Positions 7,725 to 12,398 of a stretch of 64,000 bases of DNA are shown piece by piece. Every line of letters starts with the position of its first letter. Position 1 is the first letter of the stretch. Made by a program: the position numbers and the translations under genes. Below the pieces are notes generated by a model that had not been told where the DNA came from, searched no databases, and saw nothing but the letters and a program-made list of their open reading frames with translations. The DNA comes from an uncultured Pelagibacteraceae bacterium (GTDB lineage: Bacteria; Pseudomonadota; Alphaproteobacteria; Pelagibacterales; Pelagibacteraceae): contig CACALX010000005.1 in NCBI GenBank assembly GCA_902533445.1, forward strand, positions 1-64,000. Direction: 5' to 3'.

Positions 7725-8309
7725 ATGAAAAAACTATTGATGTTGCTATTCTTGTTAAATTTACTAACAAGCAATTCTCATTCTATTGAACCTGATGTAT
7801 TTGTTCAGTCAACTGTAAATAGAGCATCAGCAATTCTTTCAAAAGATATTTCAAAAGAAGAAAAAATAAATCAACTTAAAGTAATAGCAAAAGAAACCGT
7901 AGATATAAGAGGAGTAGGTTTTTATTCTATTGGTTCAGCAAGAAAAAATCTTAATGAAGATCAAAAAAATAAATATTTAGAGGTTTTTGAGGATTATTTT
8001 TTAAAAAGTTTTTCAAGTAGATTGTCAGAATATTCTAATCCTAAAATAGATGTTCAAGATAAAGATGTATTAAATAAAAATTATACAATTGTTAAAAGTA
8101 TATTGGTTGCAACATCTGAGAGACCAGAAATTAAAATTGATTGGAGAATTTATACTAAAAATCCTGACAATCCTTTGATTAGAGATTTGATTATAGAAGG
8201 ACTAAGTTTAGCAAGAACACAAAAAGAGGAATTTGCATCTATTTTGAGTTCTAATGATGATGATATTAATGCACTATATGAAGCACTAGAAAAATTTGCC
8301 AACAATTAA
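7725..8309 (+). CDS. mlaC: MlaC/Ttg2D family phospholipid-binding protein
   Basis: Signal peptide, MlaC-like length and fold pattern, adjacent to mlaA. Confidence 0.8.
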   Translation: MKKLLMLLFLLNLLTSNSHSIEPDVFVQSTVNRASAILSKDISKEEKINQLKVIAKETVDIRGVGFYSIGSARKNLNEDQKNKYLEVFEDYFLKSFSSRLSEYSNPKIDVQDKDVLNKNYTIVKSILVATSERPEIKIDWRIYTKNPDNPLIRDLIIEGLSLARTQKEEFASILSSNDDDINALYEALEKFANN

Positions 8310-8310
8310 T

Positions 8311-8365
8311 TTGGTGGGCCCGCCAGGACTCGAACCTGGGACCAATACATTATGAGTGTACTGCT
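8311..8365. repeat. 55-bp direct repeat, left copy (tRNA 3' portion)
   Basis: ttggtgggcccgccaggactcgaacctgggaccaatacattatgagtgtactgct, exact match to 10327-10381. Confidence 0.97.
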
Positions 8366-8385
8366 AGAACGAATGAGCCGCTTGA
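8311..8385 (-). pseudogene. Partial/degenerate copy of the downstream CAU-anticodon tRNA (3' part identical, 5' part decayed)
   Basis: 8311-8365 is identical to 10327-10381; the rest retains only scattered D-arm similarity and cannot form the acceptor stem. Confidence 0.85.
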
Positions 8386-8437
8386 AATACAATAAAATTT
8401 TTTTAAAACTAGTCTAAAACTTGTATTCAGTGAGTAC

Positions 8438-8452
8438 CTGTGAGAGTCACAG
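8438..8452. repeat. Perfect inverted repeat CTGTGA-GAG-TCACAG just past the protease stop codon
   Basis: Direct reading. Confidence 0.6.
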
Positions 8453-8454
8453 AA

Positions 8455-10230
8455 TTAATTCAACTCAATAACCTTTTCTAACAAAACATTATTATGTTTT
8501 TTTTTATTTTTTAACTCTTCGTGTTTTGCTTTTGTATTTAAACAAAATAATTGAATAGTTGCTGGTCTTCCTATTTTTGCTAATTCTTTAGTATTATTAA
8601 TCACCAATGCTTCAGTTTTTGTTTTTACTCCATTAGATTTTAAAAAGTTCAATAATGTAGGTGCAGCAACTGCAAAATTAATATTTTCTGGTATGTATGG
8701 CTGGTCTTCATCTAGTAACATCATAACCTTGTTCAAACCAGATGACGCAATACCTACAACTTGACCTTCCATATTTAATACTGGTCCACCACTATTACCT
8801 GGTTGAATAGCTGCATCAATTTGAATTTGAGAATAATTGTCATCTGGACCACTCAAGGAACTTACAATTCCTCTAGATAATTTTACACTACTACTCAGCT
8901 TATCTCTGAGTGGATATCCGAAAGCTACAATATCTTCTCCAAATTCTGCTCCATCAGACTTTATATTTAAAAAACTTGAGCTTTTATAGTCCCCCTTTAT
9001 CAGACCAATATCATTAACTTTGTCTGTTTTTAAAATATTAAAAAATACTTTCTCACCATCTATTTTAGTTGCTACTTTTCTACAAATACCAACAACATGT
9101 TCGTTAGAAACTGCGTGACCAGATGAGCTTACAAAAAATCCTGTTCCAGACCCAATAACGTAAAGTTTTGCGTTAGCCTCTTTACGTTTCTTTTCCTCTT
9201 CCTCTCTTTTTTTCTTATCCTCAGCTATCTTTCTCTTTTCTTCTTCTATCTTTCTCTTTTCTTCCTCTATTTTTCTTTTTTCTTTCTCAAGAATTTCTTG
9301 ATCATTACTAGAATTTTCAGGTTTTTGTTTTTTAGCTGTAGTTGTTACTACACCACCAAAAACAAAATAGTCATCAACTCCGTCATTTCTTGAAAATCTA
9401 ACTTTAATAAAATTTTTGCTGCATTCTTTACCTATCAAAGTATGAGTGATGTGCTCTTTAACAATATTACCAGCTTTTTTTCCCTCTGGTCTATAACAAA
9501 GTTGTACTGGACCTGGATCTTGAGCCCAGCCTTTATTTGTTTTATTCCATTCTTCATAGGTAATTCTTTTAGTTATACATTTTCTGGAGAATGGAATGGT
9601 CATTTCTCCAACTTTTTCTCCACTGCAGAATTTAATTTTAATTTCTTTCTCTAAAATGTATTGATCCTCTTTTTGCGTTTGGCTTGGTTCTGTTTTGGCG
9701 ACCAATGAATTTTCAATTAAAGTTTGATAATCATTCCAAGCCCATTTATGACTGTTATTATTAAAAAAATTGACAGTTTTTTCCTTGCCATAATATTCAA
9801 TCATCATATCAATTCTTTCTTGATCTGTAGTTTCCCTAGCCTTTTTATTTTTTTCTTTTATATAAAAAGGGACACATAAGGCTGCTTCGTCAGTCCAATT
9901 TTTTCTTTCTAAATTACAAGCATTTAAGCTTGCTGTAATAGCTGCTTTAAGATTTGAATACATGTTTTTCCAACTATAAGCCCATTTATCCCCTTTAAAT
10001 GAGTAAGACCAAGCTGCAAAAGTTTGTATTGCTGAAAATTTCTGCCAATCATCTGCTGGTCTGAGTTTATTAGAACCTTTTACACAAGCGTCTGCTAAAC
10101 TTTTTGGATAATCTATTTTCTTACAATCAGCATTCAAAACTTCTTCAGCAGTAGTAAAAGCTTTAGTATTAATACTAAACGTTAAATTCAAACAAAAAAT
10201 TACAAACAGGTATCCTAATAATCGTTTCAT
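8455..10230 (-). CDS. Secreted/periplasmic trypsin-like (S1C, DegP-type) serine protease with novel N-terminal region and Lys/Glu coiled coil
   Basis: Signal peptide; GTGFFVSSSGHAVSNEHVV (His), DIGLIKGD (Asp), QPGNSGGPVL (Ser); about 300 aa N-terminal region of unclear family. Confidence 0.85.
   Translation of the reverse strand: MKRLLGYLFVIFCLNLTFSINTKAFTTAEEVLNADCKKIDYPKSLADACVKGSNKLRPADDWQKFSAIQTFAAWSYSFKGDKWAYSWKNMYSNLKAAITASLNACNLERKNWTDEAALCVPFYIKEKNKKARETTDQERIDMMIEYYGKEKTVNFFNNNSHKWAWNDYQTLIENSLVAKTEPSQTQKEDQYILEKEIKIKFCSGEKVGEMTIPFSRKCITKRITYEEWNKTNKGWAQDPGPVQLCYRPEGKKAGNIVKEHITHTLIGKECSKNFIKVRFSRNDGVDDYFVFGGVVTTTAKKQKPENSSNDQEILEKEKRKIEEEKRKIEEEKRKIAEDKKKREEEEKKRKEANAKLYVIGSGTGFFVSSSGHAVSNEHVVGICRKVATKIDGEKVFFNILKTDKVNDIGLIKGDYKSSSFLNIKSDGAEFGEDIVAFGYPLRDKLSSSVKLSRGIVSSLSGPDDNYSQIQIDAAIQPGNSGGPVLNMEGQVVGIASSGLNKVMMLLDEDQPYIPENINFAVAAPTLLNFLKSNGVKTKTEALVINNTKELAKIGRPATIQLFCLNTKAKHEELKNKKKHNNVLLEKVIELN
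9225..9287. repeat. Three tandem 21-bp units encoding the (K/R)KIEEEKR coiled-coil heptad
   Basis: ctatctttctcttttcttctt / ctatctttctcttttcttcct / ctatttttcttttttctttct. Confidence 0.85.
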
Positions 10231-10326
10231 AATCTTAATATATCAAAAAAGTCATCACCAGGTGAGTCATATGTGAGTACCTGACTGGTTGTATTACTTA
10301 AAGTAATTTAAAAAGTGTTGATTTTA

Positions 10327-10381
10327 TTGGTGGGCCCGCCAGGACTCGAACCTGGGACCAATACATTATGAGTGTACTGCT
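10327..10381. repeat. 55-bp direct repeat, right copy (within the intact tRNA)
   Basis: Exact match to 8311-8365. Confidence 0.97.
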
Positions 10382-10404
10382 CTAACCAACTGAGCTACAG
10401 GCCC
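10328..10404 (-). tRNA. tRNA with CAU anticodon, probably tRNA-Ile2 (lysidine type); elongator tRNA-Met not excluded
   Basis: Complete cloverleaf GGGCCTG..CTCATAA..TTCGAGT..CGGGCCCACCA; acceptor resembles tRNA-Ile. Confidence 0.92.
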
Positions 10405-10463: not shown

Positions 10464-10538
10464 TGGTGGGCCGTGTTGGTTACGCTCCAACTACCCCTGC
10501 AATGTCAATGCAGTACTCTACTATTGAGCTAACGGCCC
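10464..10538 (-). tRNA. tRNA-Val (GAC) with atypical D-loop and T-loop
   Basis: Cloverleaf: GGGCCGT/ACGGCCC acceptor, CTGCA-TTGACAT-TGCAG anticodon arm, GTTGG-AGCGTAA-CCAAC T arm, encoded CCA. Confidence 0.82.
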
Positions 10539-10541
10539 AAT

Positions 10542-12398
10542 CTAACTTTCTAAGAAACTTTTTAGTTGTTTAGATCTACTTGGGTGCTTTAATTTTCTAA
10601 GAGCTTTGGCCTCTATTTGCCTAATTCTTTCTCGAGTTACAGAAAATTGCAAACCAACTTCTTCTAAAGTATGATCAGTGTTCATACCAACACCAAACCT
10701 CATTCTTAAAACTCTTTCTTCTCTAGGAGTTAATGTAGATAAAATTTTTGTTGTTGCCTCTCCAAGGTTAGATTTAATAGCCTGCTCTAACGGAGCTAAA
10801 GCTTTTGTATCTTCAATAAAATCTCCTAAACTACTATCTTCTTCATCGCCAACAGGTTTTTCAAGTGAAACTGGTTCTTTTGAAATTTTTAAAACTTTTC
10901 TAACTTTATCTAGAGGCATTCTTAATTTTTGCGCCAACTCCTCTGGAGTTGCTTCTCTCCCAAATTCACTTAAAATTAATCTTTGTGTTCTCACTATTTT
11001 ATTTATAGTTTCAATCATGTGAACAGGAATACGAATTGTTCTTGCTTGGTCTGCAATTGATCTTGTAATTGCTTGCCTAATCCACCATGTTGCGTAAGTA
11101 GAAAATTTATATCCTCTTCTATACTCAAACTTATCAACTGCTTTCATCAATCCAATATTACCCTCTTGAATTAAATCTAAAAATTGCAATCCTCTATTTG
11201 TATATTTTTTAGCTATTGAAATTACCAATCTAAGATTAGCTTCAACCATCTCTTTTTTTGCTATTCTGGATTCTTTTTCACCTTTTTGAATCCTACTCAC
11301 TAATTTTTTAAAATCAGTAACTGAAATTCCAAGTTTGTGACTTATTTCAATAAGTCTTTCTCTGATATTTTTAAATTCTTCTTTATTTTTTGCAAAAAAT
11401 TGCTTCCAGACTAAATTTGTATCTAAAAATTTTTTAAGATTTGGATTTATTTCATTACCAACATAAAATTTTATAAATTCATTTCTTGGTATTTTTTGAT
11501 CCATTGCAAGTCTTAAAAGATTTCCTTCTAAAGAAATAATTTTTTTATTCTCAACATAATGCTTTTGAACAAGTTCTTCTAAAACAGATGGAGAAAGCTG
11601 TAGAGATTTAATATTTTCTAAAATATCATTTACAATTTTTTCATAACTTTTTTCCTTTGCAGGTGTAAAGTTCAGAGAATTTAAAACACAATCTAACTTT
11701 TCTTTCTGATACTTAATTAATTTTGTATATTCTTTAGTTAATGTATTTACTGTTTTTAATACTTTTGGTTTAATTTCTGTCTCCATTGCAGCAAGAGTAG
11801 GATTGAAATCATCATCTTCATCAGAAGAACCATCTTCTTTATCTGTTTCACCTGCATTTTTTTGTTTAGCGCTTGGTCCAGTTGACTCATCTTCCATATA
11901 GTTTGTATCGATATCTATAATTTCTCTAACTAAGATTTCATCTTTTTGAAGTTTTTCATTCCACTCAAAAAATTGTTGTGCTGTTATAGGGCTTTGAGAT
12001 AGTGCAATTAACATTACATCTTTTCCAGCCTCTATTCTTTTTGCAATTGCAATTTCTCCTTCTCTTGAAAGTAACTCAACACCTCCCATTTCACGCAAAT
12101 ACATTCTGATAGGATCATCACTTTTTTCGATTGTTTTACCTTCTTCCTTATTTGAATTTTCTTTTTTTCTAAGAACTTTAAAATCTGATTTTTTTTCAAC
12201 TAATGAAATATTTTCATCTAAGATATGGATAAAAGCTTGAGCAAGATTTTCGTCTGATAAATTTCTTTTACCCAATGATTTGCTAAGTTCTTCGTATGTT
12301 ATGAATCCTCTATGGGTTCCACGACCCATTAATCTAGCAAATGATTTTGTAATAATTCTTTCCACAGCGATAAAGTTGAAAGTCTTATATAATGTCAA
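10542..12398 (-). CDS. rpoD: RNA polymerase sigma-70 factor RpoD
   Basis: [88 protein letters not shown]. Confidence 0.97.

Follow-up and report, generated by a model that had tools for sequence, protein, structure and literature searches.

CIMEs (cis-mobilizable elements), for example those related to ICESt1 in Streptococcus, consist of attL and attR without integration or transfer genes, occur in tandem with integrase-bearing elements of like specificity (tandem accretion) and are expected to move in cis with such an autonomous neighbour (PMC5704250). The tycheposons of Prochlorococcus (Hackl et al.) are given in secondary sources as 4–200 kb in size and have been recognised in Methylophilaceae via their tyrosine recombinase (PMC10872708); methionine tRNA is among their targets and they are listed among the proposed phage satellites (PMC10872708, PMC11389934). 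PICMI is a minimal phage satellite of 6.1 kb (PMC10803314). In the Pelagibacterales genomospecies Ib.4 a relocated O-chain cluster lies at tRNA-Val/tRNA-Met, a target of site-directed insertion (PMC11898729).

The window analysed here is a stretch of 64 000 nucleotides from an uncultured Pelagibacteraceae bacterium (contig CACALX010000005.1, positions 1–64 000). The genome, denoted W, is a SAR11 genome of 1.13 Mb in 26 contigs and is 87% complete. SAR11 are the commonest bacteria of the ocean; their genomes are small and usually thought to be poor in mobile elements, and the route by which they exchange genes is therefore an open question. The locus comprises the following features.

7725–8309, (+): mlaC, chromosomal flank on the far side, ending 1 bp before the repeat (gene call, domain search).
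8311–8365, (−): far-end att repeat, matching the tRNA 3′ part exactly over 55 bp, adjoining mlaC (sequence comparison).
8366–8454, strand not given: type-A right end (arm region), kept in G120, G177 and G102.
8430–8440, (+): GTGAGTACCTG repeat of the right end, inferred candidate for an integrase arm-binding site (repeat search, conservation).
8455–10230, (−): cargo protease gene, 591 aa (Trypsin_2 domain).
10231–10327, strand not given: type-A left end (arm region), directly adjoining the 3′ end of the tRNA (conservation).
10262–10269: GTGAGTCA in the left end, accompanying the GTGAGTACCTG repeat.
10273–10283, (+): GTGAGTACCTG repeat of the left end (repeat search, conservation).
10328–10404, (−): intact CAU tRNA, attachment target, attL side of the cassette (ARAGORN; Rfam tRNA model, 72.7 bits).
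10464–10538, (−): tRNA-Val(GAC), chromosomal flank on the tRNA side (ARAGORN).
10542–12398, (−): rpoD, chromosomal flank (gene call; order conserved in relatives).

A sequence-only reading of the window had described an intact CAU tRNA with an exact 55-bp copy of its 3′ part about 2 kb away, enclosing one protease gene and no integrase. Both statements were confirmed, the former by ARAGORN and sequence comparison and the latter by the single CDS found (8455–10230). Positions 8311–8365 are identical to 10327–10381 and comprise tRNA positions 24–77, with the encoded CCA, and a single T from the flank; the two copies have the same orientation and a spacing of 2016 bp. Similarity extends to 8378 (94% across tRNA positions 10–77), and the Rfam tRNA model detects the fragment (8323–8379) barely above its threshold (31.1 versus 29 bits). 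An exact 55-bp match inside 2 kb is not due to chance, and nothing elsewhere in the W genome exceeds 78% over 55 bp to the tRNA fragment. ARAGORN labels the CAU tRNA as Met, which does not distinguish an elongator Met tRNA from a lysidine-type Ile2(CAU) tRNA. The 11-bp direct repeat GTGAGTACCTG inside both cassette ends had not been mentioned in the sequence-only reading.

The cargo is a trypsin/HtrA-like serine protease with its Trypsin_2 domain at residues 362–494, and the nearest solved structures are HtrA/Deg proteases. By eye only, the sequence ahead of the domain was judged to contain a charged repeat and, probably, a signal peptide. Paralogues of the protease are encoded on contigs C4 and C12 of the W genome, with no tRNA near either. 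No partial integrase was visible between the cassette ends in the gene and ORF list. A role in defence was considered for the protease; this rested merely on protease-domain similarity to RT-Protease_XI and was not counted as evidence.

By anatomy, the kind of element closest to the window cassette is the CIME: its ends are the repeat and the intact tRNA, with only the protease between them. The SAR11 units differ from CIMEs in their length of ∼1.4–3.4 kb with 1–4 genes and in grouping into families that keep their ends but exchange their cargo; furthermore, those of type B (see below) moved in integrase-less form and no conjugative partner was seen. With tycheposons the cassette shares the anchoring of a cargo element at a tRNA in a streamlined marine bacterium, and its CAU tRNA fits their insertion at a small set of tRNA genes; however, at 2.0 kb and without a recombinase it meets neither the size nor the tyrosine-recombinase criterion, as given in a secondary source (PMC10872708). 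The Ib.4 O-chain site is possibly the same tRNA-Val/tRNA-Met locus, but it holds a large O-antigen cluster, and the paper, in a text search, mentions no integrase or recombinase and, in the relevant passages, describes no small cassettes or tRNA copies (PMC11898729). The general kind of element is already known, and the minimal, modular and stacked form in SAR11 looks new; since the primary tycheposon and VEIME literature was not covered, an earlier description in SAR11 is not excluded.

The mlaC–tRNA–tRNA-Val–rpoD region was fetched from 60 places, some of the contigs ending within it. These regions were picked partly for the presence of two tRNA pieces and the counts are therefore not frequencies. 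In 31 of the 60, mlaC leads directly into an intact tRNA, i.e. the site is empty. The closest relatives, G041 and G156 (mlaC 93% and rpoD 99% identical to W at the protein level), have such an empty site, with one tRNA and no protease, and are otherwise colinear (mlaC–tRNA–tRNA-Val–rpoD). An insert together with a 3′ tRNA copy separates mlaC from the intact tRNA in 11/60 regions (G102, G120, G177, G172, G068, G198, G083, G045, G193, G031 and G166); further occupied sites were found afterwards in G382, G258, G395, G262 and G209. Integrase-less cassettes at the CAU tRNA of other SAR11 measure 1.4–3.4 kb, carry 1–4 genes, differ from one another and are sometimes arranged in tandem. The close relatives among these loci are Pelagibacteraceae single-cell genomes.

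Two families of cassette ends, A and B, were distinguished, and the cargo differs among the cassettes within each. Type A consists of W, G102, the inner unit of G120 and G177, which have ∼90 bp in common at each end, including the GTGAGTACCTG repeats; full type-A ends occur in only four of the 399 genus genomes, every time at the CAU tRNA. The right end of the window cassette (8366–8454) is 92% identical to that of G120, 84% to that of G177 and 81% to that of G102. The cargo is a protease in W, G102 and G177, and the C-terminal domain is 95% (G102) and 65% (G177) identical to that of W at the protein level; between the G120 cargo and that of the window no similarity was detected in DNA or protein, so conserved ends enclose unrelated cargo. 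Between W and G102 the DNA encoding the C-terminal part of the protease is 89.1% identical, compared with 68.8% for mlaC and 80.8% for rpoD, which supports transfer of type A, albeit an older one. The two proteins differ in their N-terminal part and recombination within cassettes therefore occurs as well.

Type-B cassettes carry AATTTGGTATACAATGAAAA-like repeats at both ends. This pattern was found in 23 of the 399 genomes, in at least 14 of them at the CAU tRNA; several off-site matches (G352, G121, G357, G279, G157 and contig C2 of G068) fall within unremarkable gene regions and were regarded as fortuitous. Among the type-B cargo are T5orf172-domain proteins, one of which matches the PADLOC candidate PDC-S57, an S9-peptidase-like protein, a YdjM-like protein (below the Pfam cut-off) and unknowns. 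The cassettes of G198 and G262 are 97.3% identical over their first 150 bp and 99.0% over their last 200 bp, with a differing middle gene, whereas outside the cassette the mlaC flank is 74.1% and the region beyond the tRNA 84.1% identical; this type-B cassette has therefore moved as a unit. For G031 and G198, 49/53 fourfold sites are identical in one cargo gene versus 55/152 in rpoD. Judged by these identities, the integrase-less form itself was passed between divergent hosts.

Elements that do carry an integrase occupy the same site. In eight genomes (G258, G010, G336, G368, G399, G400, G401 and G402) a phrog_1/PF00589 integrase starts ∼80–100 bp from the CAU-tRNA 3′ copy. In G399 and G400 it belongs to restriction-modification islands of ∼18.4–18.6 kb with methyltransferase-like ORFs, and in G401 and G402 to a 5.7-kb satellite-like element encoding the integrase, an AAA_25 primase/helicase-like protein and a terminase small subunit, in which no capsid genes were recognised. 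The latter resembles PICMI in size and gene types (integrase, primase/helicase-like AAA protein, no recognised capsid) but has a terminase small subunit, lacks a recognised AlpA/Fis and resides in SAR11 hosts. The criterion for a phage satellite, an integrase and a replication module without a complete capsid set, whether or not packaging genes are present, is thus fulfilled by the 5.7-kb element but not by the window cassette, which holds a protease only. The right arm of the G401 element matches that of the integrase-less type-B cassette of G031 with a score of 112 (34 at most after shuffling), and the TTGGACTCAATTTG...ACAATGA motif is likewise shared by its left arm. Only the G031 cassette has an arm that clearly matches one of an integrase-bearing element; other type-B cassettes share merely short motifs. 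No conjugation genes were noticed in the integrase-bearing islands, most ORFs of which were not searched against domain libraries.

A relative of the G401 element was found in the viral contig L347 (IMGVR_UViG_3300030380_006182; 6170 bp), the 99-bp terminal repeat of which implies a circle of 6.07 kb and which carries a 42-nt 5′ half of tRNA-Val(TAC) upstream of its integrase. The presence of this circle in a viral contig set is the sole hint of packaging by a helper phage; packaging itself has not been shown. Related integrases adjoin fragments of tRNA-Gly(GCC) and tRNA-Val(GAC) in other marine genomes, and sister integrase lineages (MSSIRKR.../MASIRKR...) lie beside a different CAU tRNA in other SAR11 (L333–L338 in G082, G345, G284, G389, G215 and G303). 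Set against integron gene cassettes, which are characterised by an attC site and an IntI-type integrase, the present units end in tRNA halves with arm repeats, and the integrases detected belong with phage families (phrog_1). A phage origin of the att site was not supported: no viral contig carried the 44-bp or 25-bp tRNA core, the type-B repeat or a type-A arm, the distant phage matches among those listed being tRNA genes or covering the tRNA part only. The integrase search of viral contigs yielded only relatives at 23–30%.

Neither the 399 genus genomes nor one scan of viral contigs by arm pattern yielded an integrase with type-A arms. Comparison of the type-A arms with both integrase groups gave chance-level scores; a TGAGTAC-like motif is present in both, in opposite orientation, and was not used as evidence. 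The 451-aa tyrosine integrase of W (Arm-DNA-bind_3) was rejected as the mover as it adjoins tRNA-Thr(TGT) outside the window (G000:C1:55602–56090, L002), and a 551-aa integrase of G120 was rejected as a candidate as it is located elsewhere and not at the CAU tRNA. In most cassette genomes only one recombinase was seen, of 325 aa, presumed to be Xer. As the genomes are incomplete (W 87%), a resident integrase that escaped detection is not excluded.

The best explanation is that the block is a non-autonomous, CIME-like cassette placed by a trans-acting tyrosine integrase, and as a whole this is considered probable. The window block would be a cassette of ∼2.0 kb with one cargo gene between type-A arms. 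An integrase, inferred to be supplied in trans, would insert it site-specifically at the anticodon loop of the CAU tRNA; the end repeats are inferred to be the arm-binding sites, and the existence of a separate type-A integrase donor, as yet unfound, is likewise inferred. The tRNA would be left intact because the cassette brings along a tRNA 3′ half of its own, while the displaced half would stay beside mlaC as the far-end repeat. The cassette would belong to a SAR11 population in which the cargo varies, no fewer than two end families (A and B) occur and units stack in tandem at a CAU tRNA that is also the target of the 5.7-kb satellite-like elements and the 18-kb restriction-modification islands. 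No excised circle of any cassette itself was seen.

Acquisition of the protease as an integrase-less cassette, as put forward in the sequence-only reading, is supported by the empty sites in the nearest relatives, by the different cargo at the CAU tRNA in many genomes and by the non-vertical history of the W and G102 proteases; vertical inheritance of the protease, which would have refuted that reading, was not observed, and relatives with a common att core do carry the integrases that it anticipated. Of its two suggested routes, mobilisation in trans stands by analogy with type B and not directly, since the type-A ends match neither integrase group, and decay into individual relics does not fit type B.

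Such decay would mean that deletion stripped the integrase and core from a larger island or satellite at this site, leaving the att repeats and one cargo gene as a CIME formed in situ. CIMEs have been described as arising by such deletion (PMC5704250), larger integrase-bearing islands are present at the identical site and some cassettes look worn, such as that of G068 with its mutated tRNA copy. The explanation is nevertheless unlikely for the window, as both ends are conserved in several hosts around different intact cargo, the integrase-less type-B form itself moved between divergent hosts and no partial integrase lies between the window ends; it is still possible as the ultimate origin of the window's own cassette. 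The distribution could also reflect homologous recombination through the flanks (mlaC, the tRNAs and rpoD) after a single ancient integration. These flanks are conserved, SAR11 are generally thought to recombine much and the cargo is mosaic (the middle gene of G198 versus G262, the N-terminus of W versus G102), but identity rises abruptly from 74% to 97% at one att site and falls from 99% to 84% at the other, which weakens this explanation for type B, and tandem stacking and unrelated end families at one site also argue against it, making it very improbable. That W is a draft assembly (26 contigs) leaves room for an assembly artefact, or a local duplication of the tRNA 3′ part next to a protease that is an ordinary resident gene; this is refuted by like structures in independent genomes together with the colinear empty site in the closest relatives, and hardly any weight is given to it.

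Beyond the non-autonomous cassette of the window, a wider proposal can be made only tentatively and is rather doubtful at present, namely that SAR11 possess a tRNA-addressed cassette system in which units of one or a few genes, equipped with nothing more than integrase-recognition ends, are loaded and stacked at tRNA genes in trans by integrases of small phage satellites, perhaps travel in virions and are exchanged in an integron-like manner. If true, the streamlined SAR11 would gain an integron-like route of gene exchange. Recurring 2-kb integrase-less cassettes and satellites, one of which shares a cassette arm, constitute a concrete and testable route, and units of this kind would be overlooked by island surveys that demand an integrase or a minimum size.

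Stacking is seen directly in G120, where a type-B and a type-A unit are in tandem, and is implied in G177 by a type-B left end to the left of the type-A copy; in G258 a type-B cassette neighbours a restriction-modification island that carries an integrase. By inference, the insertion closest to the intact tRNA should be the newest. An extra CAU tRNA was called by ARAGORN inside the island of G258 (L192, 12885–12961). The cassette 3′ copies begin at tRNA position 24–33 and the 5′ copies from islands on the opposite side of the tRNA (G094, G129, G127, G107 and G105) end at position 36–46, so that the two converge on the anticodon loop, where crossover by tyrosine integrases is known to take place. 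These opposite-side islands (L171, L172, L113, L195 and L092 among the loci) are larger, lie between the CAU tRNA and tRNA-Val and have left a 5′ tRNA fragment; G094 has methyltransferase-like ORFs and G129 a trypsin-like protease, and no integrase was recognised at the site. A tandem array was also observed at tRNA-Leu(TAA) in G092 (L081, contig C18, 1299–8050), in which the intact tRNA is accompanied by 5′ copies ∼2.2 kb apart (positions 1–40, 1–39 and one worn), each with a repeated flank of ∼110 bp. One unit of this array contains a relative of the window protease and another a copy of the G172 cargo with 98.6% DNA identity; as G172 has this cargo at the CAU tRNA, the comparison suggests that cargo may move between tRNA sites.
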